Source: Methanolobus zinderi (GTDB lineage: Archaea; Halobacteriota; Methanosarcinia; Methanosarcinales; Methanosarcinaceae). Taken from it: a DNA stretch of 64,000 nt. Positions 16,670 to 28,206 of the stretch are shown piece by piece (position 1 is the first letter of the stretch; every line of letters begins with the position of its first letter). The notes beneath the pieces were generated by a model, which ran no database searches, was not told the origin of the DNA, and worked only from the letters and a program-made list of their open reading frames with translations. A program made the position numbers and the translations under genes. The stretch covers positions 930,001 to 994,000 of the forward strand of contig NZ_CP058215.1 of NCBI RefSeq assembly GCF_013388255.1, in the 5' to 3' direction.

Positions 16670-16882
16670 TCATTTCAAGCTTATAATCCATGAGTTGCTA
16701 TTCTTCTGCATGCATATCTTATCTTCTCTTGCAAGCCAGCCAAGTGCCATAAAAACCATCTGTGATTCAAAACCATTTTCTTTGAAATTCTTTTTTATAC
16801 CTGCCAGATTGGATTCTCCCTTCTCAAGCAATCTGTAGACCTGGCCTGCCGCCTGTCCTATATTCAAACATACTTCATCCAT
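16670..16882 (-). CDS. Small winged-helix protein (DUF2582-like)
   Basis: 70 residues from the ATG at 16882, which has GAGGTGG 6 nt upstream; the frame reaches 17 codons further up but that part looks non-coding. The sequence IGQAAGQVYRLLEKGE, then FESQMVFMALGWLAREDKI, matches the small wHTH domain proteins of methanogens and Bacteroidetes (DUF2582). It may be a DNA-binding regulator, though the family is not characterised. It is the last gene after the glycogen operon, 158 bp downstream of the debranching-enzyme gene. Confidence 0.75.
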   Translation of the reverse strand: MDEVCLNIGQAAGQVYRLLEKGESNLAGIKKNFKENGFESQMVFMALGWLAREDKICMQKNSNSWIISLK

Positions 16883-17039
16883 AGAGCCACCTCGCAGGTT
16901 GTTCACAGGTCGAGAACCAGATGAATCTGACATCTATTTACACATCCTCAGTCGTGTTAAAATGCTGAAACTTTATTTTACCCACGATCTTTCCAGCCTG
17001 CCCGAACAACCCGTTGTTAAAAAAGAACACTTTCACCTT

Positions 17040-19040
17040 TCATAAAGGTGACGAACAATCCTCTTCCTGCATGACATCCTCGGCCCACGCTCGACTGATC
17101 TCGGCAACGCTCCATGCCTGGGATATACATCCGCCAGGTTTGTGGGGAACATTCCCATCAAACACTTCGGATATTGTGCCTATTCCTGCTTCATCAAGGT
17201 GTCTTTCGAGACCTTTCAGGAGGGCTTTTGCATATGATCTGCTCTCTTGTGAATAATCATTGACCTTCCGGTAGGCTGTAATATAAGGTCCCAGTAGCCA
17301 GGGCCAGGCAGTGCCGCTATGATAGGCTGCGTCCCTGCTTAGCAGGTCTCCTCGATAGGTACCGATATATACCGTATCACGGGGAGAAAGTGTCCTGAGA
17401 CCATATGGTGTCAGCAGTTCTTCTGTGACAACCTTTACTATGCCCTTCTCCGTATTCCGGGAAAGCATTGTGAACGGCAATGAAACTGCAAATATCTGGT
17501 TTGGCCTGACAGATGCATCCTTTGCATGTATCCTGCTTTCAGGGCCCGGAATTAGATCATAGAGACAGCCTCTTTCCCTGTTCAGGAATTTCTCTGCAAA
17601 ACTGTCCTTTGCAGTCCGGGCAGTTTCTGAATAACCACTGACCTCTCTTTCTAACTTCTCTCCCAGGAGTTCTGCATATTTCAGAGCGTTATACCAGAGT
17701 GCATTGATCTCACAGGCTTTCCCTTTCCGGGGTGTAATGGGCGTATTGTCCACAATTGCATCCATCCAGGTAAGCTGTCCTCCGTGGAATATGAGGCCGT
17801 CATCATCCATGCCGATCCCGAATCTCGTTCCGTTGCGATAGTTTTCGATTATATCTTCGACAGTATTCCACATTGAATCGATGAATGGGATATCCTCTGT
17901 ATAGTCAAAATACCTACCAAGGGAGTGAACGAACCACAGGGATGCATCAACTGAATTGTAAATAGCCGATCCGCCGGGGCTATCCGAGAACATATTCGGT
18001 ATAAGTCCTTCCCTGCAGTTTGCTGCAAAGGTTGCAAGTATGTTCCTTGCATCATCAAACCTGCCGCTTACAAGGGTCAGACCCGGTAGTGAGATCATTG
18101 AGTCCCGACCCCAGTCTGCAAACCAGTGATAACCTGCGATAACAGACCTTGAATCCGTGGATTTTCTTTTTACAATGAAAGAATCCCCTGCAGTGACAAG
18201 CCGGCGTATAAAGGTATCATCTCTGTCATATCTCTCTACAAGCTTATCAAGACGCTCTGTCTCTTTCTCAAGCCTGTTCCTTACAGTCCGGATATCAGCA
18301 GAACCGGTATCCCCGGTGGATGCAATAATGAAAAAAGATGAATAGCCTTTCCCGATATCAGCTTCAAAGTATCCGGGATTGAAGTTATCTTCAATATAGG
18401 GATACCCTCTTGAGAGCTCCACAGGGTATTCAAGATTGTAGTACCAGTAAGGCTCATGGCTGAACTGCATATTGGAATTCAGGTGGATTTCACTTTTCCC
18501 GTTTTTCAGAATAATCCCGGTATCTTTTGCTTCCTGGTGGAAGTTGATATCTTTTGATCTGGTAAGATGATGTATATCCCTGTCATTGACAAGCGGGAAC
18601 ATACGCAGGGATACATCTGTATCAAGGGGATTGTGGATATTGTACATTATTATGATTGTATTCTCCCCGTATACCATGAACAGCTTTTTTTCGATACTTA
18701 TTCCACCTGTCATATATCGAAAGGTTGGTATTGGGTCCATGGCAAATCCCATCAGGTACCGGTAACCTTCGGGGTGTACTTTTCCCGGATACTGGTGTGC
18801 TGCAAGGTAGTATGTATCTTCGCCTGCTATAATTTCCTCATCAAGGGAGCAGAGCATCAGCCTCCGCTCCACAGGTGGATTCATGGATGCCACCAGCAGA
18901 CCATGATACTTTCTTGTGTTTATTCCCATAGAGGTGCCGGCAGCATATCCTCCAAGGCCGTTGGTTACTATCCACTCCTTGTAAGGGAATTCCCGGTTAG
19001 ATATGTCCCCTCTATCACGATCATAACTGATATCTTTCAT
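17040..19040 (-). CDS. Glycogen debranching enzyme (amylo-alpha-1,6-glucosidase, GH133)
   Basis: Hydrolyses alpha-1,6 branch glucose in glycogen. The N-terminal domain has EWIVTNGLGGYAAGTSMGINTRKYHG (read in two parts), diagnostic of archaeal/bacterial GDE. The (alpha/alpha)6 domain has YHWFADWGRDSMISLPGL, LTWMDA and GTISEVFDGN, containing the likely catalytic acids. I prefer ATG 19040 (MKDISYDR), because homologues start shortly before this Asp-Arg; an ATG at 19091 would overlap the upstream gene by 26 bp. It is the last gene of a nine-gene minus-strand run, 25 bp after the GH15 gene. It would complete glycogen breakdown together with GH15, GH57 and the phosphorylase. Confidence 0.92.
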   Translation of the reverse strand: MKDISYDRDRGDISNREFPYKEWIVTNGLGGYAAGTSMGINTRKYHGLLVASMNPPVERRLMLCSLDEEIIAGEDTYYLAAHQYPGKVHPEGYRYLMGFAMDPIPTFRYMTGGISIEKKLFMVYGENTIIIMYNIHNPLDTDVSLRMFPLVNDRDIHHLTRSKDINFHQEAKDTGIILKNGKSEIHLNSNMQFSHEPYWYYNLEYPVELSRGYPYIEDNFNPGYFEADIGKGYSSFFIIASTGDTGSADIRTVRNRLEKETERLDKLVERYDRDDTFIRRLVTAGDSFIVKRKSTDSRSVIAGYHWFADWGRDSMISLPGLTLVSGRFDDARNILATFAANCREGLIPNMFSDSPGGSAIYNSVDASLWFVHSLGRYFDYTEDIPFIDSMWNTVEDIIENYRNGTRFGIGMDDDGLIFHGGQLTWMDAIVDNTPITPRKGKACEINALWYNALKYAELLGEKLEREVSGYSETARTAKDSFAEKFLNRERGCLYDLIPGPESRIHAKDASVRPNQIFAVSLPFTMLSRNTEKGIVKVVTEELLTPYGLRTLSPRDTVYIGTYRGDLLSRDAAYHSGTAWPWLLGPYITAYRKVNDYSQESRSYAKALLKGLERHLDEAGIGTISEVFDGNVPHKPGGCISQAWSVAEISRAWAEDVMQEEDCSSPL

Positions 19041-19065
19041 TATTTCCCCCGGAAATGAAAATATC

Positions 19066-21033
19066 TTATGCGGAATTGCGGCTAAGTTCATCGAGCAGAA
19101 TAATATTTTCCAGCATCAGGGCACAACTCCAGCACAAAGGAATAGCCCATGCAGGCCTGCCGGAATGCTTGTTTACCTGCTCTGGCAGCATTCCGGAACT
19201 GGTTGTCCCTCTTACCGACCACCGGATATATTCCAGTGCTTTTGTTGTCAGCATTTCCCGTTCATTATTCTTTTCCAGATCATGGGTCTCCTTCATTGAA
19301 TCTGCAAGTAAAAGCAGCGCCTTTGAGAGCCATAAAGTGGTGACAGTCCAGGGGTTGCCTTCTATATAGCTATCTCTTTCATAGCGCTTTATCCCAAAAT
19401 ATTCATTCACCGGAACTCTGAGACGGGACTCGATATTGCTGATCATTGACTTGATCATCTTCCTTTCATTCTCATCATCCGCAGAGAGCATATTGAAGGG
19501 TACGAAAGTTCCCAGGATGCTGGCATCGATGTCTGTATCAAGTTTTCCATTCCTGATTCCGCGTGCAAAGTAACCCTGGTCCGCAAGCCAGAAACTCTCT
19601 ATTGTTTGCTGCTTGATAAGCTCCGCCCTCTCAATCCAGCGGCTGGCAAGCCCTGTTTCATTGTAGTCACGTGCCAGACGTGCAGCACCCATAAGTCCGC
19701 CGTAGATTGCAGCATTGGTATAGGTAAAAATACCCGAATAGGTTTCCCAGAGGCATGTGCATGGTTCGTGTAACCCTTCAGGGGTCCTTTTCATAAGGTA
19801 TTCGGCTGCTGAAAGGACAGTTGACCACATATTATCAAGGAACTCCCTCTTCATTACGGGTTCGAGACTGTCATAGTATTCTTCCATGGCAAACAACGTG
19901 GAACCTGTCTCATCTATCTGGGTCGAGAATCTGAAATTGCCCCATGAAGAGCCGGCATTACCGTCAAGCCAGTAACGCTGGAACCAGGAACCATCAGGAA
20001 GCTGGGTCTGTCTGCACCATGTGAAGAAACGCTCGCAGTACTCCGGGTACCCCGCATCCAGAAGTGCCAGTACTATTTCAGAGGTGTCCCTGTTCCAGCA
20101 ATAGCCATAACCACCGCTTTTCTCAAAATCATGATCAAATTCAGGCGCTGCAACAAATGAACCCTTATCAGGGTCGTTCAGGATGCTTAATGTAAGTAAA
20201 GAACGATTGAACGTCTCCATCAGTTCCACATTTATGTACTCAAACTCAGACACTTTCTTTATATCCAGGAGCCTTTTTCTGGAAAGCCACTTGATCCAGC
20301 TTTCCTGTGTTTCATTTAACATACTTTCAACGGTCTTGTTCCGTGTATCACGTATCTGTCTGTAAAGCAACTGTCTTGCTGATGCAGCACCGATGAATAT
20401 ACTGATCTCGGCAGTAGATCCGGGCTCGATATCAAGTTTCCAGCCGATAGCGTTGTTAATGTTACCTATATCCTCATGATTGTTCTGCAGCTCGCCGTCT
20501 TCCATATCATACTTGGCATTTGTCCACCATATAGTATCCAGGGCCTTTCCGATCTGCCATTCTTCGAACATGGGCACAGAGCCTATTCCCAGGTGGTAGT
20601 CCTTCCAGTATTGCACAAGGATCCCTGATTCATGGTCACAGAATGCAGAATTCTTTTTCTGTATTTCTCCTACCTGAAAATTAGAATAGTAAAAGAACTT
20701 TCCATGAAATCCCGCCGACGAACTGATCTTATAATTGCGTACCATTACCGGATGGTCTTTATGAATAAAGTCCTGAATATACATTTTCAGTCCGGTCGGA
20801 TGCACAAGTTCGGTGTTTACTATATTTGTATTTTCCACATAGTTCTGTCTTACCTGCCATTCATGGTCGTTTGACCAGATGAGCCTGTTCCCGTCATACA
20901 GGCAGGCCTGTGATTCTTCAAGATGTTGTGCAAAGTCCCTTCCCGGATAGAAGAAATTGAAGAGCTCTCCTTTTTTACCCATGGTGACAAGCAAATGCCG
21001 ATTACCGAGTATTGAGTTGGGCTGCCTGATCAA
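19066..21033 (-). CDS. Glucoamylase-like glycoside hydrolase, GH15
   Basis: 655 residues, releasing glucose from alpha-glucan ends. The N-terminal beta-sandwich domain starts MIRQPNSILGN, as in archaeal GH15. The catalytic barrel has GGYGYCWNRDTS, LPDGSWFQRYW, TCLWETYSG (likely general acid Glu) and, near the end, GMLPEQVNKHSG (likely general base Glu) followed by PLCWSCALML. No signal peptide is present, so it acts in the cytoplasm on stored glycogen. The start ATG overlaps the stop of the V4R gene by 4 bp (translational coupling). Confidence 0.92.
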   Translation of the reverse strand: MIRQPNSILGNRHLLVTMGKKGELFNFFYPGRDFAQHLEESQACLYDGNRLIWSNDHEWQVRQNYVENTNIVNTELVHPTGLKMYIQDFIHKDHPVMVRNYKISSSAGFHGKFFYYSNFQVGEIQKKNSAFCDHESGILVQYWKDYHLGIGSVPMFEEWQIGKALDTIWWTNAKYDMEDGELQNNHEDIGNINNAIGWKLDIEPGSTAEISIFIGAASARQLLYRQIRDTRNKTVESMLNETQESWIKWLSRKRLLDIKKVSEFEYINVELMETFNRSLLTLSILNDPDKGSFVAAPEFDHDFEKSGGYGYCWNRDTSEIVLALLDAGYPEYCERFFTWCRQTQLPDGSWFQRYWLDGNAGSSWGNFRFSTQIDETGSTLFAMEEYYDSLEPVMKREFLDNMWSTVLSAAEYLMKRTPEGLHEPCTCLWETYSGIFTYTNAAIYGGLMGAARLARDYNETGLASRWIERAELIKQQTIESFWLADQGYFARGIRNGKLDTDIDASILGTFVPFNMLSADDENERKMIKSMISNIESRLRVPVNEYFGIKRYERDSYIEGNPWTVTTLWLSKALLLLADSMKETHDLEKNNEREMLTTKALEYIRWSVRGTTSSGMLPEQVNKHSGRPAWAIPLCWSCALMLENIILLDELSRNSA

Positions 21034-21839
21034 TCCAGCTCTCTCCTGAGTACGTGTTCTGTTTTTGCACCTCTGGGTACAGGGGATATTATGTGTTCAC
21101 AGAAGATGTGTCCTGTACTCAGACACTGACTTTCGTGGACCTGAACCGTCCTTTCCATGACTTCTGATATGAACCCTGAAAAAAAGCCACTTATATAGGC
21201 ACAAGCAGGCATTTCAGTTTCTTTATACACATCTGAAATAAAACAATCCAGGGTCCGAATGCTGCCTTCAAGGTTTTTTATATCAACATCATACTCGAGC
21301 ATTCCCCATCCTGCAGCCATAAACAGTTCTTTGAGCAGGTCAAAACAATTGCTTTTATCAATATCGATTATCTCACGTAAGAGTTTGACTGCCATGGTCC
21401 CGCTTATAATGCCGGTGTGCATCTGGAGACCTTCAGCTTGTGGAACATGTTCGTTCATGATTCTGAGGATGTCAACAAATGTCCTAGCCCTCAGGATGAT
21501 AGCTCTTTCTCCGAAAAGACTCAAAGGGAACTCCACGGACTGCATTACCTGGTTTCTGGATACTCCGTAGTCGACATCAAGCACTACATCCATTTGTTTA
21601 AGTTCAGCTACAACGTCGTTTACGTCCCTGCCTTTCTCAACTTCCGTAAAAATAACATATTTTCCTCTTGCCGGGTCTTCAAGGCTATCCATATATGCAA
21701 ATCTCATATCAAGTCCTTTCTCCGCAAAAAGAGAAGTTATGTCAGCTTCCGAATGCACGGTGTTCCTGTAGGCTATCTTGAACCAGATGACTTCAGCATC
21801 TTTGTTTGCCTTTGAGAACATGCATAGATCTCGCACCAT
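21030..21839 (-). CDS. ACT-like plus V4R-domain sensor protein
   Basis: 269 residues with no HTH and no TM. Residues 1-100 look like an ACT-type small-molecule domain (FTEVEKGRDVNDVVAELKQMD). The rest carries a V4R (4-vinyl reductase) fold, ending in ACAYISGFFSGFISEVM and the Cys-containing stretch SQCLSTGHIFCEHI, the typical V4R C-terminus that binds small molecules or metals. AGGTG lies 11 nt before the ATG. It is sandwiched between GH57 and GH15 genes, overlapping the latter by 4 bp, so it probably senses a sugar, energy or redox signal for glycogen use. That role is inference. Confidence 0.75.
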   Translation of the reverse strand: MVRDLCMFSKANKDAEVIWFKIAYRNTVHSEADITSLFAEKGLDMRFAYMDSLEDPARGKYVIFTEVEKGRDVNDVVAELKQMDVVLDVDYGVSRNQVMQSVEFPLSLFGERAIILRARTFVDILRIMNEHVPQAEGLQMHTGIISGTMAVKLLREIIDIDKSNCFDLLKELFMAAGWGMLEYDVDIKNLEGSIRTLDCFISDVYKETEMPACAYISGFFSGFISEVMERTVQVHESQCLSTGHIFCEHIISPVPRGAKTEHVLRRELD

Positions 21840-21873: not shown

Positions 21874-23076
21874 CTATTTATTCTGCTCTTTCAGTTCCAT
21901 GAAAACCTTTTCCTTAAAATCCATCATCACTGCCATGAAATTCACAGCAGCATCATAGGGTGATTCATGGATGCTGAAATACGAATGCACATCGCCGTCT
22001 CCGAGCCATTTGGTGCTCATATAGTAATAATGGTCAGATGTCAGCAGATGTTTCCATATCTTTATGAGCTCTTTATCCCCGGTTGCTTTCACATACGGCT
22101 CAAGTAGCTTTGCTTCTTCAAAACACCGTCTCTGCATATCATTACCAAGCCAGGCACTGGTATCTCTTTCAATATCCGCCCAGGATATTGTTGAGAAATC
22201 ACCCACATCTATCTCGCCTGCCGGAGAATACTTCTCGATCGTCTGGGAAGGAGTGAGGAAGCTGATCCCACGGTCTGTAACCTCTCCCGGAACTGCCCTG
22301 AGAAACTCAAAGATGCCGGTATCTGTCCACTGGTGTTCCCCGAATGTCTCGTAATCCATGAAGATATTGGCTGTTTCTCCTGAGCTCTGAGACACCCAGT
22401 CAGCCCATTTGCCTGCAGTCAGAGGATACTCCTCCCGCCATTGCGATGAGAAGCGGTATCCGATATCGTCACTTAATTTATAATTTCTCAGAAGTACTGC
22501 AATATCACTGCTCTTTGCTTTATAGACATGGTTTGGTGACCTGCCTCCAAGCACCCTTTCTATGCCTTCGGTAAGTATTGCCTTATATCCCATCTCGGCG
22601 GCAGCTCCGGCTATGGTATTGTTATACATCAGCTCCGTGTTCCTGAATACCTCCGGTGTGATGCCAAGCAGTTCTGACATGACCCTGCGATGCTCTTTCA
22701 CCTCTTCTATGAACTCCTGCCTTGACTCGAAAAGTGCTGCAATGGAATGATAATATGTCTCATCAATGAACTCTACACAGCCAGTTTGGGCGAGATCCCT
22801 GAATGATTCCAGTACATCCCCGCCCCAGCTCTCACACTGGCTCAGGAGAGTGCCTGTTACCGACATGCTCACTCTGAACTCACCGGAAGTATTATCGATC
22901 AATTCCAGGATGGTCTGGTTTGCAGGTAGATAGCATTTCTCGGAAACCCTCCGGAAGATCTCTTTGTTGATATCGTTATCAAAATATCTGTTGAATCCAC
23001 TGATTCTTTTGTCAGGCCAGAACCACTTTAACCTGTGTGGCTGGTGAAGTTCAAAATAGAAACAGACCGATCTCAT
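21874..23076 (-). CDS. GH57 alpha-amylase-type glycoside hydrolase (catalytic residues intact)
   Basis: 400 residues. GH57 regions are visible: HQPHR (11-15), FRNTEL with nucleophile Glu148, and FMDYETFGEH with acid/base Asp241. No signal peptide is present, so it acts on internal alpha-glucan. It overlaps the preceding GH57-like gene by 4 bp and is 34 bp before the V4R gene. The paralogue upstream has lost some of these residues. Confidence 0.92.
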   Translation of the reverse strand: MRSVCFYFELHQPHRLKWFWPDKRISGFNRYFDNDINKEIFRRVSEKCYLPANQTILELIDNTSGEFRVSMSVTGTLLSQCESWGGDVLESFRDLAQTGCVEFIDETYYHSIAALFESRQEFIEEVKEHRRVMSELLGITPEVFRNTELMYNNTIAGAAAEMGYKAILTEGIERVLGGRSPNHVYKAKSSDIAVLLRNYKLSDDIGYRFSSQWREEYPLTAGKWADWVSQSSGETANIFMDYETFGEHQWTDTGIFEFLRAVPGEVTDRGISFLTPSQTIEKYSPAGEIDVGDFSTISWADIERDTSAWLGNDMQRRCFEEAKLLEPYVKATGDKELIKIWKHLLTSDHYYYMSTKWLGDGDVHSYFSIHESPYDAAVNFMAVMMDFKEKVFMELKEQNK

Positions 23077-24203
23077 CTGTCTGCCTCCACAAGAGCTCTT
23101 TTCATATCAGAGAGTATGGAAAAGTTATTGACCGCCCGTTCATATCCCAGCCTGCGCCCTTCAGCATTGAGCTCAAGAAGGATATCTGTTTGCTGGAGAT
23201 AGCGGTATAATTTCCTGATTCTTCCGTATCTCGGATCAGATCCATGCCCATCCAGTCCATGGCCAATGTTCTGGAGCTCATGCATATAGAGGTGCTGTGC
23301 ATGATTTCCCAGCAGATTGTGCATTCCATAGCGCGCTGTCCTTTTGGAATGAAGGGATGGTAGTTCCTGTGACCTGAACCTGGCAGCGGCTTCTTCCGGC
23401 AGAAGCATTTCGATCCCATGGTAAGCCAGGCACCCAGGCAGGTCTCTGAAGAATTGTAATATTTGCTTATCCTTTTGCAGGTGTCCCTGAAGGGAATCGT
23501 ACTTGATATACAGTGTGACGACATCACCTTTCATATCTGATATCCATGAGGCGAATTTTTCAGGTATCAGTGGGAAACCGGTCCATTTCCTGTCAGAGTA
23601 TTTCTTTTCAATGTCCTCGCTGAGATCGATGTGCCGCAGAATCGTGGGAATCTCATTCCTGTACACATGTACGGGATCACTTCCATTGATCAGGTTCTGC
23701 GAACCTTCTGAGATAAAACACTTAAATCCCATGTCTCTTACAGACCCGATAACTTTCTGTTCAAGGATAAGTTCCGGGTTCGCAAAAGTTACAGGTCTTA
23801 CCCCAAACAGTTCATCAAGCGCTTCAAGATGCATTTTCACCTGTGCTTCAAATTCATCCGGTCCGGTAAAGAAAGGACAGATCGAATGATAGTACGGAGA
23901 AGCTATAAGGCCTGCACCCATGCTGACAAGTTCTTTGAAACTCCCGGGAATTCCGTGCGTCCATTTGCACTGTTCCAGGTAAATGCCTGATATGTCAAAG
24001 GCGTATTTTCCCCCATTGTCCATGGAATCTGCCAGAGCACGGTTGATAGGGATCGTATCCTTTTCCAGTTTTGAGAAATTCTGGAAAGCCTTCTCCATAT
24101 CAAAGTAGTTTCTGAGTTCAGGAGAAGTGTAACCCTCCCAGGGCCAGTACCATTTAAGAGGCAGCGGGAGGTGTACTTCGAAACATATACAAACGGTCTT
24201 CAT
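23073..24203 (-). CDS. GH57-like paralogue, probable pseudoenzyme
   Basis: 376 residues, plainly homologous to the downstream GH57 gene (YWPWEGY against the KWFWPDKR region; FANPEL against FRNTEL). Glu144 of the nucleophile position is kept, but HQPHR has become HLPLP and the acid/base Asp is replaced: YIKYDSLQGH stands where the paralogue has FMDYETFGEH, so Lys234 occupies the Asp position. It is likely catalytically dead or altered, and perhaps a partner subunit or glycogen-binding protein of the active GH57. The 4-bp gene overlap suggests matched expression. Homology is seen directly; loss of activity is inferred. Confidence 0.85.
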   Translation of the reverse strand: MKTVCICFEVHLPLPLKWYWPWEGYTSPELRNYFDMEKAFQNFSKLEKDTIPINRALADSMDNGGKYAFDISGIYLEQCKWTHGIPGSFKELVSMGAGLIASPYYHSICPFFTGPDEFEAQVKMHLEALDELFGVRPVTFANPELILEQKVIGSVRDMGFKCFISEGSQNLINGSDPVHVYRNEIPTILRHIDLSEDIEKKYSDRKWTGFPLIPEKFASWISDMKGDVVTLYIKYDSLQGHLQKDKQILQFFRDLPGCLAYHGIEMLLPEEAAARFRSQELPSLHSKRTARYGMHNLLGNHAQHLYMHELQNIGHGLDGHGSDPRYGRIRKLYRYLQQTDILLELNAEGRRLGYERAVNNFSILSDMKRALVEADR

Positions 24204-24223: not shown

Positions 24224-25108
24224 TCAACTTTCCCCGTTATTATTTTCTGCGATCTGCGGTATCTGCCGGGTTCGCAGTTCATCTGCAAACCAGACAGTTC
24301 TCTGTGGGAAGGCGATCTCAATGCCATTCTCTTCCAGTGTCTTCTTAATGATCCAGAGCATCCTTGTTTTCAGCTCATACCATTCCGTAACCGGGGACCA
24401 TATCCTGACAAGGATATTGACTGCGTTATCTCCCAGATTATCTACGAAGATACCCGCAGGAGGGTTCTTGAGTGCAAAGGGCTCTTTATCGAGTATTTCC
24501 TGGATGATCTCAATGGCTTCGTCCGCATCGTCCTCGTAGCGTATACCAACTACATAGTCAAACCTTCTGACCACATTCGCGACATAGTTTGTGATATTCG
24601 TCGTGAACACTATCTCGTTCGGCACTCTCACAAAAAGACCGTCATAGGTACGGATTATGGTGGAAATAAAGCTTATATCCTCTACATATCCCGCGCTGTT
24701 GGATATGTTCACCTGATCCCCTATCTTAATTGGTCTTTCTGTCATCAGGAAAATACCTGACATGAGGTTTCCTACAATACTCTGGCTGGCAAAACCCACT
24801 ACGATACCCACGACACCACCGGCAACCAGCAGACCTGAGACGTTTACATCAAGTACCGGGAATATGATGGTTACGACAGCAAGCGTGATAACACCATAGT
24901 AAACTATCTTCAGCAGGATGTTCATCTGCTCTTTGTCTATCCTCTCCTTAAAGGACCTCTCAAGATACAATGTGAGTCCCTTTCCTATTGCGATTGCCAG
25001 AAAGAGTATCAGTATGACTATGATACCTTTCAGTAGTACATCCTGGAATGTTGGTGCAAGGTTTATGAGTTCAGTTACATTACCTGAGATATTTTCAGCG
25101 ACATTCAT
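24224..25108 (-). CDS. Mechanosensitive channel, MscS family
   Basis: 294 residues: three TM helices and a cytoplasmic cage domain. The pore helix region reads GVVGIVVGFASQSIVGNLMSGIFLMTERP, followed by KIGDQVNI, the MscS beta-domain signature. It opens under membrane tension to release solutes on osmotic downshift. The start overlaps the end of the DUF432 gene by 4 bp, so it is coupled to it; the GH57-like gene follows 20 bp later. The C-terminus (RTVWFADEL) is complete. Confidence 0.93.
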   Translation of the reverse strand: MNVAENISGNVTELINLAPTFQDVLLKGIIVILILFLAIAIGKGLTLYLERSFKERIDKEQMNILLKIVYYGVITLAVVTIIFPVLDVNVSGLLVAGGVVGIVVGFASQSIVGNLMSGIFLMTERPIKIGDQVNISNSAGYVEDISFISTIIRTYDGLFVRVPNEIVFTTNITNYVANVVRRFDYVVGIRYEDDADEAIEIIQEILDKEPFALKNPPAGIFVDNLGDNAVNILVRIWSPVTEWYELKTRMLWIIKKTLEENGIEIAFPQRTVWFADELRTRQIPQIAENNNGES

Positions 25109-25812
25109 AAGCCAAACTCCATTACGCTCTTCGTACCATTCAGCAGTATCTTGCGTGATGTGTACAGTTCAACGGATCTATGGAAACCCGGTGAAAGCGG
25201 ATAGGTTGTGAAATCTATCTCAGCCAGGTTCTTATTGATTATCTTCATCTGTGCCTTCATGGAGATCCTGTCTGATCCGTAGTATATTTTCATTCCGTAG
25301 GCATTGAACACAGCCTGGCTTATTTCCATCCAGTTACCGGTCTCATTGGAGATTACCAGTTCCAGGTCTCCTTCATACAAAATATCAGGCCGCGGATAGG
25401 ATGGATAAACCTGACTTTCCCAGTGTTTGCATATGAGACCCCGATTAGGATTACCGTACAGGGTATATTTATTCTCATTAAATGTGATTATGTCTATTAG
25501 CTCGTATTCCCCATCTTTTCTTGAGATGAATATTCCTATCTCTATGGGGAATTTGAGGTGTATTGTCTGTTTGTCATAGGGAGCGATCATCACCGAACGC
25601 TGGAATTCTATAAGCAGAAAAGAACTTAGTGTCTTGGGAACATTCACAGGTTCGATGGGATTTATAAGAAATTCACCCTTTTGAAGCAGGATCTTCTCAA
25701 TTGTATCGTCTTTTGAAGATCGCTTGTAAACCAGGTTTCCTTTCTCTTCTTCTACTGATATTGTAGTTCCTTCGGTCTCTACTGTGAAAGGTGGAGTATA
25801 TTTGTCAAACAT
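25105..25812 (-). CDS. DUF432 family protein
   Basis: 235 residues, mostly beta, no TM segment. Features: MFDKYTPPF start, PFEIGIFI-like FPIEIGIFISRKDGEYELID, YGNPNRGLICKHW, and KRILLNGT-like RKILLNGTKSVMEFGL end. It resembles DUF432, an archaeal family of unknown function often found next to MscS genes. Here it overlaps the MscS gene by 4 bp and follows corA by 18 bp, suggesting a cytoplasmic partner of the channel. The function is not known and the association is inferred from context. Confidence 0.78.
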   Translation of the reverse strand: MFDKYTPPFTVETEGTTISVEEEKGNLVYKRSSKDDTIEKILLQKGEFLINPIEPVNVPKTLSSFLLIEFQRSVMIAPYDKQTIHLKFPIEIGIFISRKDGEYELIDIITFNENKYTLYGNPNRGLICKHWESQVYPSYPRPDILYEGDLELVISNETGNWMEISQAVFNAYGMKIYYGSDRISMKAQMKIINKNLAEIDFTTYPLSPGFHRSVELYTSRKILLNGTKSVMEFGL

Positions 25813-25830
25813 TATTGTTCCTTCACTGTT

Positions 25831-26892
25831 TTATAACCATTTCTTCTTGCGGAAATATACGAACATGGAAGCGGACATCAAGAGGATTACGATCCAGACT
25901 GCCGGATATCCCCACTCATATTTAAGTTCAGGCATGTATTCGAAGTTCATACCATATAAACCGGTAACAAAGGTAAGGGGTATGAATATGGTGGCTATTA
26001 TGGTCAATGTCTTCATGACCTCGTTCATCCTGTTACTGATGCTTGACAGGTAAAGGTCCATGACGCCTGTTATAATATCACGATAGGTTTCGATGCTTTC
26101 GACAACGCGAATTGTATGGTCATATATATCTTTCAGATATACCAGGGTCGTATCCTTGATCAACGGAGAGTCGGAACGTTCCAGACTGCTGATAACATCC
26201 CTGAGGGGCCAGACGGACTTACGGAAGTATATTATCTCCTTTTTAAGGTCATGTATCTCTTCAAGAGTCTCTGAAACAGGATTTTCGATAAGCCTGTCTT
26301 CCAGAGCTTCTATTATCTCGCTGACCTGCTCAAGCACCAGGAAATAGTTGTCTACAATGGAATCCATCAGAGCATAGGCAAGATAGCTGGCATCCATGGA
26401 GCGGATACGTCCCTTTCCTGTTCTCAATCTCTCCCTGACTGCACTGAAAGTATCACCTTCGGCCTCCTGGAAAGAAACAACGAAATCCTCACCAAGTATG
26501 AGACTGACCTGCTCCAGCCTTATATCATTCTCGATGTCGTCATACCAAACCATCTTGAGTACGATAAACAGGTATGACTCATAGTCCTCCACTTTGGGAC
26601 GCTGGTCGGTGTGCAGGATATCCTCCATTACAAGCGGGTGAAGGCCGTATTCCGCACCAATCTTTTCAATAATATCCACCTGATGGATGCCGTCTATGTT
26701 TATCCAGGTAACGACGTCCTGGTCCCCGTCAAAGCAATCTTCAACCTTTTCGACTACCTTTTCCTCAAACCTGTCCCGATTGTACTTTATCAGGGTGATC
26801 TTTGGTCTTTCAGCCTTCCTGTCACCCACATGTACAATAGAACCAGGGACAAGGCCGGCTTTTTTAGAATATCCGCTGAGCAGTTTTTTCAT
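25831..26892 (-). CDS. corA: CorA-type magnesium/cobalt transporter
   Basis: 353 residues: a large cytoplasmic domain with long helices, then two C-terminal TM helices. TM1 ends with the diagnostic YGMNFEYMPEL loop (GMN selectivity motif), and a short basic tail (FRKKKWL) follows TM2. It carries Mg2+ into the cell down the membrane potential. It lies between the glycogen-synthase-like gene (45 bp) and DUF432 (18 bp) in the same minus-strand run. Confidence 0.95.
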   Translation of the reverse strand: MKKLLSGYSKKAGLVPGSIVHVGDRKAERPKITLIKYNRDRFEEKVVEKVEDCFDGDQDVVTWINIDGIHQVDIIEKIGAEYGLHPLVMEDILHTDQRPKVEDYESYLFIVLKMVWYDDIENDIRLEQVSLILGEDFVVSFQEAEGDTFSAVRERLRTGKGRIRSMDASYLAYALMDSIVDNYFLVLEQVSEIIEALEDRLIENPVSETLEEIHDLKKEIIYFRKSVWPLRDVISSLERSDSPLIKDTTLVYLKDIYDHTIRVVESIETYRDIITGVMDLYLSSISNRMNEVMKTLTIIATIFIPLTFVTGLYGMNFEYMPELKYEWGYPAVWIVILLMSASMFVYFRKKKWL

Positions 26893-26937
26893 TGATACCG
26901 CCTGCTTTTTCCATTTTCCCGATAAGCTCTGTTTTAC

Positions 26938-28101
26938 TCAGCTTTTTGCATCCATATAGGTCTTCACGGTCTTCCCGGCTATACTGTCCCAGTTATATTT
27001 TTCCCGGAGTTGTTCTCTTCCGGCTTTACCAAGTTCTCCGTCATCGTAGTTATCAAGTACGTGATTGATACCCCAGGCGATGGATTCAGGGTTCTTGTAG
27101 ACCGTGATGCCTGTCCTGAAGTTGTCCACCAGTTCAACGGCATCTGTTGCGACAATGTTCTTGCTGGCGTCCCAGGCTTCCAGAAGAACGATACCAAATG
27201 GCTCATTGCGGCTTGGCACACACATGATATTACAGGCATTGACCCATTCTTTTTTGACATCATCACTTGCATAACCCAGGAAATGGCAACTATCACTGAC
27301 TCCGAGACTGGCCGCAAGATTTTCGCATACCGGTCTCATTTCCCCTTCTCCTATCAATACAAATTGGATATCCCACCTGTTCTTGAGTACTCTGGGTATT
27401 GCCTGTACCAGAAGATCAGGACCTTTCTGGTAGTTCATACGTCCTACGAAGAGAACCACAGGAGCACAGGGGTGTATCCCGTAACCGGATTTGACCTTAC
27501 CGGAATCAACTTCCATTCTCATATGGTTCTCATAGAGACCGTTGGGAATGATATCCATCTTGTAATCCGGTATCTGGTAGAGGTGCTGTATCTCTGCTTT
27601 GAGGGCCTCGGATGTAACTATGACCCTGGCGGACTCATAACCTCCTCTCCATTCCCTGTGGCTGATCTCCATGGCCTCCCACCAGTTTCCGTGAACATTA
27701 CCGTTCCTGCCCCATTCGGTACTGTGGTATGTGATAACGAAAGGAATACCAAGATCCTCTTTTATTCTTGTGACCACGTTCACAGGATGCCAGTCGTGTA
27801 CATGTACGATATCAAAACTGCCAAATTCCGTAACACTATCGATGAATGTGTAATACATCGCATCACACATACTGTCCATCTGCTGTACCAGATCACCGTT
27901 GAGGGAATGGTTCACACGATGGTAATGAACACCGTTAACGATCTCATAGGGAGGCATATCCCGGTTACGGGTATATATGTGGACCTCGTCGCCTCTTAAG
28001 GCAAGCGCTTCTGCAAGCTCCGATACGTGTGGAGCAAGTCCCCCTACCTTTATCGAGTAAAGGCTTTCCCATGAAAACATCGCAATTCTAAGTTTTTCCA
28101 T
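26938..28101 (-). CDS. Glycogen synthase-like glycosyltransferase (GT4/GT5 fold)
   Basis: 387 residues from ATG 28101 (MEKLRIAMFSWE), which has GGGAGGTCA 5 nt upstream; a longer frame to 28206 lacks a ribosome binding site and looks non-coding. GT-B fold: N-terminal KVGGLAPHVSELAEAL (nucleotide-sugar loop), VHVHDWHPV, then C-terminal VLFVGRMNYQKGPDLL and NEPFGIVLLEAWDA (E-x7-E signature). It probably extends an alpha-1,4-glucan from a nucleotide sugar. It is the first gene of the nine-gene glycogen/ion-channel unit. Confidence 0.88.
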   Translation of the reverse strand: MEKLRIAMFSWESLYSIKVGGLAPHVSELAEALALRGDEVHIYTRNRDMPPYEIVNGVHYHRVNHSLNGDLVQQMDSMCDAMYYTFIDSVTEFGSFDIVHVHDWHPVNVVTRIKEDLGIPFVITYHSTEWGRNGNVHGNWWEAMEISHREWRGGYESARVIVTSEALKAEIQHLYQIPDYKMDIIPNGLYENHMRMEVDSGKVKSGYGIHPCAPVVLFVGRMNYQKGPDLLVQAIPRVLKNRWDIQFVLIGEGEMRPVCENLAASLGVSDSCHFLGYASDDVKKEWVNACNIMCVPSRNEPFGIVLLEAWDASKNIVATDAVELVDNFRTGITVYKNPESIAWGINHVLDNYDDGELGKAGREQLREKYNWDSIAGKTVKTYMDAKS

Positions 28102-28206
28102 AAATGACCTCCCTGAATAATCAATTTCATCCCTGTCCGTTAATTTCTGATGCCGGCTCAGGGTGTTAGCTTCTATGTATTTCCTTCCCTTTAAAGCCTG
28201 CAGCAA

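Follow-up and report, generated by a model that had tools for sequence, protein, structure and literature searches.

What does a protein built like a sensor do in the middle of a glycogen operon? The question is raised by a 64,000-nucleotide stretch of the Methanolobus zinderi genome (contig NZ_CP058215.1, positions 930,001 to 994,000; hereafter the window), in which an earlier note had described a protein with ACT-like and V4R parts (ACT-V4R) at 21030-21839, within a set of glycogen genes and coupled to a GH15 enzyme. That description is confirmed here, with the gene on the minus strand; from comparisons across related genomes we think it rather likely that ACT-V4R serves the adjacent GH15 glucoamylase as its dedicated regulatory subunit. 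To our knowledge, little is known of how archaeal glycogen stores are controlled; a 2016 paper, going by its title, reportedly finds that glycogen metabolism in M. acetivorans is under the control of nutritional status.

An ACT-V4R protein and its companion gene

The gene runs from 21839 down to 21030 from an ATG start, and the same interval read on the plus strand gives a translation interrupted by stops. Its product passes the Pfam gathering score for V4R (PF02830; 46.2 bits, cut-off 31, E 4.9e-12, residues 197-253) and does not reach that for ACT (PF01842; 21.2 bits against 27, E 2.5e-4), an assignment that we nevertheless make because the fold supports it. An AlphaFold2 model built from 32 sequences (mean predicted local distance difference test score, pLDDT, 72.7; predicted template modelling score 0.54; pLDDT below 50 at residues 1-10, in the linker at 96-119 and at 261-269) contains the beta-alpha-beta-beta-alpha-beta order of the ACT fold, with strands at 15-25, 44-51, 58-68 and 86-94 and helices at 30-40 and 74-81. 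The V4R fold, which the earlier note had left to structure prediction, is found: Foldseek matches the model to the phenol-sensor domain of PoxR (E 4e-7) and the V4R protein MJ1460 (E 1.3e-6), as well as to TRAPPC3 structures, and VIA-align to MopR (Z 15.0; root-mean-square deviation, rmsd, 4.1 over 126) and MJ1460 (Z 14.2; rmsd 1.8 over 96). The N-terminus matches IlvN (E 8.8e-5) and AF1403 (E 1.2e-4) in Foldseek, and the ACT part aligns with a regulatory-subunit chain of acetohydroxyacid synthase (AHAS; Z 12.1, rmsd 1.9 over 81). As the earlier note had it, no helix-turn-helix (HTH) or other DNA-binding domain was matched in Pfam and NCBIfam searches, the NCBIfam MsvR model giving a partial match only (36.7 bits against an equivalog cut-off of 220).

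Relatives were sought in 60 genomes, our own (a single 2.70-Mb contig) included; 32 of the 59 others carry a full-length orthologue and one more (G047) a truncated one. In all 33 of these loci the V4R gene is immediately followed by a GH15 gene of the same orientation, and this layout recurs in 21/21 further loci from a phylum-wide profile search and in 6/6 chosen from a family search, making, with the window, 61 of 61 laid-out loci (one V4R truncated); the link with GH15 that had been looked for in other genomes is thus kept. In the window the stop codon of the ACT-V4R gene (TGA) and the start codon of GH15 (TTG) share letters in the sequence TTGA, which suggests that the two are translationally coupled, and a GH15 start at -4 is available in the window, in 26 of the 33 relatives-search loci and in all 21 of the phylum-search loci.

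Presence follows the same pattern. Among the 59 other genomes, 41 have a GH15 orthologue (E < 1e-100), of which 33 also have V4R, and none of the 18 that lack GH15 has it; across the family (111 genomes) V4R is found in 70, GH15 in 92 and both in 69, the sole V4R genome without GH15 (G435) having just 744 bases between the V4R gene and a contig edge. Of the 70, 54 were laid out and the other 16 judged by coordinates: GH15 adjoins V4R in 13, G449 is fragmentary, and in G421 and G435 V4R stands at a contig edge. Among 392 phylum genomes a clear gap separates the full-length hits (weakest 7.3e-104), which are confined to families f1, f2 and f4 of one order, from the partial ones (best 6.8e-23), which we did not count as ACT-V4R genes. 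None of eight loci with such weak partial hits has an adjoining GH15; four of them (L071, L072, L118 and L121) match none of ten window proteins and the others (L119, L120, L122 and L123) match V4R alone. A scan of named genomes gave two relatives, the closest (Methanolobus sp. UBA118) 97% identical in protein sequence.

The GH57 genes are less constant neighbours. In G043 and G047 they lie on another contig, with no GH57 in the 7-8 kb upstream of V4R, while the V4R-GH15 pair is intact, and in G011 some 7 kb separates GH57a from V4R (G055 and G059, whose contigs extend only 414 and 218 bases in front of V4R, were not used for judging relocation). The fixed partner of ACT-V4R would therefore appear to be GH15 rather than the GH57 genes; GH57 as partner is weakened by the first two genomes, and also by the unclustered changes in GH57a and GH57b described below. 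G238 carries a distant ACT-V4R at one end of a 3-kb contig; no glycogen gene could be recognised by eye in the part examined, and the architecture may therefore predate its link with GH15.

GH15 in genomes that lack V4R

The enzyme itself matches Pfam GH15 (E 8.4e-22) and TIGR01577 (755.8 bits, under the cut-off of 820.7). Its model has a mean pLDDT of 91.7, with the bacterial glucoamylase 1lf6 as top Foldseek match, and consists of strands to about residue 217 (a beta-sandwich) and helices beyond.

In 22 family genomes GH15 is present without V4R: six in g1, 11 in g3, three in g8, plus G420 and G264 (G419, whose contig starts inside GH15, was not scored). At 21 of these loci GH57a and GH15 are 29-181 bases apart, and in G006 (L124) a 7.7-kb stretch lies between them where V4R would be expected; tblastn with the window V4R at 1e-4 found no match there. 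On a tree of GH57a and GH57b from 76 genomes, V4R presence has to change four times, each change being required by starred branches; the lineages lacking V4R are counted as four since g3 and g8 are joined on the trees. These trees do not separate gain from loss; as the gene also occurs in the outlying families f2 and f4, we read the changes as four losses with GH15 retained.

Glu430 is kept in 82/82 GH15 proteins and Glu618 in all 81 with a letter there, with V4R and without it alike, and we take these two to be the catalytic residues. A different picture emerges at residues 143, 169, 170 and 178, where the state WWWE is found in all 60 GH15 proteins from genomes with V4R (L069, with a split GH15 frame, being excluded) and in none of the 22 from genomes without; six distant paralogues (L176-L181), which have Lys at 143 and an unsure alignment at 169-178, were omitted from the counts. 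Among the replacements of the Trp positions are Arg, Lys, Asn, Met, Ile, Leu, Val and Ala, as might fit an exposed site that is without its partner. In the model this patch comprises the end of strand 138-143 and the stretch 164-178 with its short helix, the beta-sandwich loop that includes block 161-170 (pLDDT 68) being less well ordered.

Of 122 GH15 positions that are invariant in the 60 proteins with V4R, 25 are altered in one or more of the lineages without it, of which there are four, giving 31 changes by lineage, of which 13 fall in one 40-residue segment, residues 139-178 (expected from shuffling, 6.6; P = 5e-5). The changed sites here are Q141, W143, Q160, K163, W169, W170 and E178; no lineage of the four is without a change in the segment, and E178 is altered in all of them (P = 0.0006). 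Segments of 20, 30 and 60 residues give P = 0.0054, 0.028 and 0.0158. Against a matched null, drawn from clades that retain V4R and with 20-60 events, a count of 13 was reached in 1 of 172 sets; in an earlier clade null, with event number unmatched, 0 of 3000 sets reached the count of 15 then observed. Applied to GH57a, GH57b and GDE (the glycogen debranching enzyme; tested with no members from two of the V4R-lacking lineages), the segment test gave no clustering (P from 0.36 to 0.84). The suggestion in the earlier note that ACT-V4R controls glycogen breakdown gains from these GH15 changes where V4R is missing, and has to be narrowed in that the fixed partner appears to be GH15, not GH57.

Sensor chemistry and a possible mechanism

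Cys213, Glu236, Cys239 and Cys247 are invariant in 54/54 ACT-V4R orthologues (the alignment leaves out the truncated L070, and L146-L151), and the Cys-Glu-Cys-Cys of the phenol sensors aligns with them; we predict that they form a zinc-ligand quartet of the DmpR/MopR type. In DmpR, zinc is reportedly held by Cys151, Glu172, Cys177 and Cys185, with cysteine spacings of 26 and 8 (PMC7264223), although the Glu number as printed there conflicts with the aligned spacing, which places the Glu three before the second Cys. The redox regulator MsvR of methanogens also has a C-terminal V4R domain, and in M. acetivorans MsvR the mutated cysteines C206, C232 and C240 are again 26 and 8 apart; that source judges the conserved V4R cysteines to be part of rearrangements that affect DNA binding (PMC3729527). 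Since C213, C239 and C247 of ACT-V4R share this spacing with both, zinc or redox sensing is our first reading of its chemistry, and a qualified one.

Neither system is otherwise a close parallel. Unlike MsvR, ACT-V4R has an ACT-like domain, no matched N-terminal DNA-binding HTH and a place in a glycogen operon; with no HTH matched, we dropped transcription regulation of the MsvR type. Unlike DmpR, MopR and PoxR, with which it shares the V4R fold, the Cys-Glu-Cys-Cys site and its spacing (PMC7264223), it is without an AAA+ or DNA-binding part and without the pocket Trp, which the same text calls strictly conserved in DmpR. At position 196, which in our own alignment corresponds to that Trp, the 54 orthologues have Val (36), Ile (9), Thr (3), Met (3), Phe (2) or Asn (1), and never Trp; for want of this Trp we dropped phenol or aromatic sensing by V4R. 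Stand-alone archaeal proteins of the MJ1460 type have the same V4R fold, the 157-residue structure of MJ1460 having no ACT domain, and two relatives of this type (L119 and L121, of 167-168 residues) are not beside GH15. AF1403 of Archaeoglobus (PDB 1y7p, titled a probable metabolic regulator) matches by its ACT-like N-terminus alone, its C-terminal part being unmatched.

A further comparison is with the AHAS regulatory subunit, IlvH or IlvN, a free ACT-domain protein that is not known to have a V4R domain and regulates a separate catalytic subunit; the ACT folds match, and we draw on it for how such a protein might work, with a different enzyme, and not as a claim of membership. Literature searches on V4R with an ACT domain, V4R with glycogen and archaeal regulatory vinyl 4 reductase found no paper, and those on Methanosarcina glucoamylase and an archaeal glucoamylase regulatory subunit had no such title among the matches listed.

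Drawing these observations together, we suggest that ACT-V4R would be produced together with GH15 and would dock on its N-terminal beta-sandwich through the region of W143, W169-W170 and E178. With somewhat less assurance, we speculate that the V4R domain (with zinc on Cys213, Glu236, Cys239 and Cys247, whose cysteine counterparts in MsvR are important to its redox response) and the ACT domain might respond to a cellular signal, either a small metabolite or the redox or metal state, and that this signal might be relayed to GH15, most likely as a restraint, such that glycogen is broken down only at need. GH15 and its catalytic residues are kept where V4R is gone, and V4R is therefore not needed for GH15 activity; a dispensable protein fits an inhibitor or modulator better than an obligate activator, an inference to which we would give about even odds. 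The fullest form of this model, in which ACT-V4R is a redox- or metal-gated glucoamylase inhibitor whose zinc-cysteine V4R switch would hold GH15 by a Trp-rich loop and let the enzyme go on starvation or oxidation, is a tentative one that we consider doubtful as it stands.

Several points weigh against a regulatory subunit acting through this patch. Individual sites are often intact in the 22 GH15 proteins without V4R (E178 in 13, W143 in 5, W169 in 16, W170 in 9) and no single one is lost across every such genome; under the matched null, 3 of the 172 sets contained a site changed in four clades and 39 contained one changed in three, and the fraction of changes within one segment is unremarkable under the unmatched null (P = 0.21). 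The shuffles, moreover, take invariant sites as equally mutable, and the sites were picked for their invariance where V4R is present. Four changes of presence also give limited power: with only four independent pairs, a level of 0.05 is out of reach for a sign test on any one site (median p 0.25 for E178). The patch could serve otherwise, for example in packing on the catalytic domain. On the sensor side, the ACT-loop Gly is present in just 27 of the 54 orthologues, one conserved ACT ligand is therefore unlikely, and a single fixed amino-acid ligand for that domain is weakened.

It is also the case that GH15 as a whole diverges faster where V4R is missing (its distances relative to those of GH57a average 1.54, compared with 1.27 where V4R is present, uncorrected for relatedness), and general relaxation is therefore part of the signal. 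This lends something to the idea that the patch changes are relaxed or adaptive, following a shift in the role of GH15 (salinity, substrate) that coincided with V4R loss and involved no contact between the two proteins; the concentration of changes at otherwise invariant sites in one 40-residue stretch, and their occurrence there in all four lineages, make this improbable in our view. That ACT-V4R might sense a signal and act elsewhere, on transcription or other glycogen enzymes, with operon position and GH15 changes being indirect, recalls its nearest named V4R relatives, which are transcription regulators (MsvR by partial match; PoxR, MopR and DmpR); yet no DNA-binding domain was matched, GH15 stays the partner even where the GH57 genes have moved, and among four tested proteins the clustered changes are confined to GH15, such that we give this possibility little credence.

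A role for ACT-V4R as an assembly factor, stabiliser or structural subunit of GH15, and not as a signal-responsive regulator, has rather more to commend it, as the evidence for docking and coupling fits a stoichiometric stabilising partner as well and the V4R fold also resembles TRAPPC3, part of an assembly complex. GH15 with its catalytic residues nonetheless persists in 22 genomes without V4R, so such a partner is not strictly required, and in characterised proteins such V4R domains act as sensors; we regard it as unlikely. What is real is a conserved, GH15-linked protein of sensor type, for whose physical docking on GH15 there is good indirect evidence. Should the gated-inhibitor form of the model hold, ACT-V4R would be the first case known to us of archaeal glycogen breakdown being controlled at the protein level, and also the first of a V4R protein that works on an enzyme and not on DNA. 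A regulatory subunit of this kind would extend V4R domains from gene regulation to direct enzyme control. The analysis pinpoints one conserved gene pair, in 69 of the 111 sampled family genomes, and singles out four GH15 residues whose change should break the predicted interaction.

Neighbouring genes and other V4R proteins

On the minus strand the genes are ordered GT4, CorA, DUF432, MscS, GH57b, GH57a, ACT-V4R, GH15, GDE and DUF2582; the main features are listed in Table 1.

Table 1. Positions of the ACT-V4R gene, its parts and its neighbours in the window
Feature	Position	Strand	Basis
ACT-V4R gene, 269 residues; predicted dedicated GH15 regulatory subunit	21030..21839	-	Open reading frame, Pfam V4R, fold
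ACT-like domain, residues 15-94	21558..21797	-	Pfam below cut-off, model, VIA-align
V4R domain, about residues 112-255	21075..21506	-	Pfam match and fold
Span of the four predicted zinc ligands (C213, E236, C239, C247)	21099..21203	-	Invariance, Cys spacing
TTGA stop/start overlap of V4R and GH15	21030..21033	-	Open reading frames
GH15 glucoamylase-type enzyme, 655 residues; predicted partner	19066..21033	-	Pfam, TIGR01577, model
GH15 residues 141-178 (W143, W169, W170, E178; also Q141, K163); predicted docking region	20500..20613	-	Patch states
GH57a, putative catalytic Glu148 and Asp241 kept	21874..23076	-	Pfam, alignment
GH57b, degenerate GH57, Lys where GH57a has its catalytic Asp	23073..24203	-	Pfam, alignment
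GDE, archaeal-type glycogen debranching enzyme	17040..19091	-	Pfam, NCBIfam

GH57b adjoins GH57a wherever both fall in the locus stretch examined. At the position of Asp241 in GH57a, 65 of 77 GH57b orthologues have Lys, Asn, Arg or Ser and 12 have Asp, the Glu being kept in 74; GH57b may thus be a non-catalytic partner.

Osmotic and ion genes accompany the glycogen genes at this locus: MscS, DUF432 and CorA (24224-28206, minus strand) separate GT4, a glycosyltransferase gene, from the GH57 pair, and the order GT4-CorA-DUF432-MscS-GH57 is conserved in 16 of 20 loci from the same genus, the remaining four being cut short or rearranged. Downstream of GDE, at 16670-16933 on the minus strand, lies the gene of a small winged-helix DUF2582 protein that is present in many loci and is a possible local regulator.

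A search for V4R in the M. zinderi genome found five places, two of them above the cut-off. An ArsR-type HTH protein (L004) and a response regulator with MetOD1 (L003) have weak V4R matches of 17 and 19.2 bits, and a further protein (L002:1429-2118) has an N-terminal V4R domain (Pfam, 35.1 bits) followed by a long charged tail. In another family, the stand-alone V4R protein of 167 residues at L119:5917-6420 is encoded between folate-reductase-like and hydrogenase-like genes, as named by eye.
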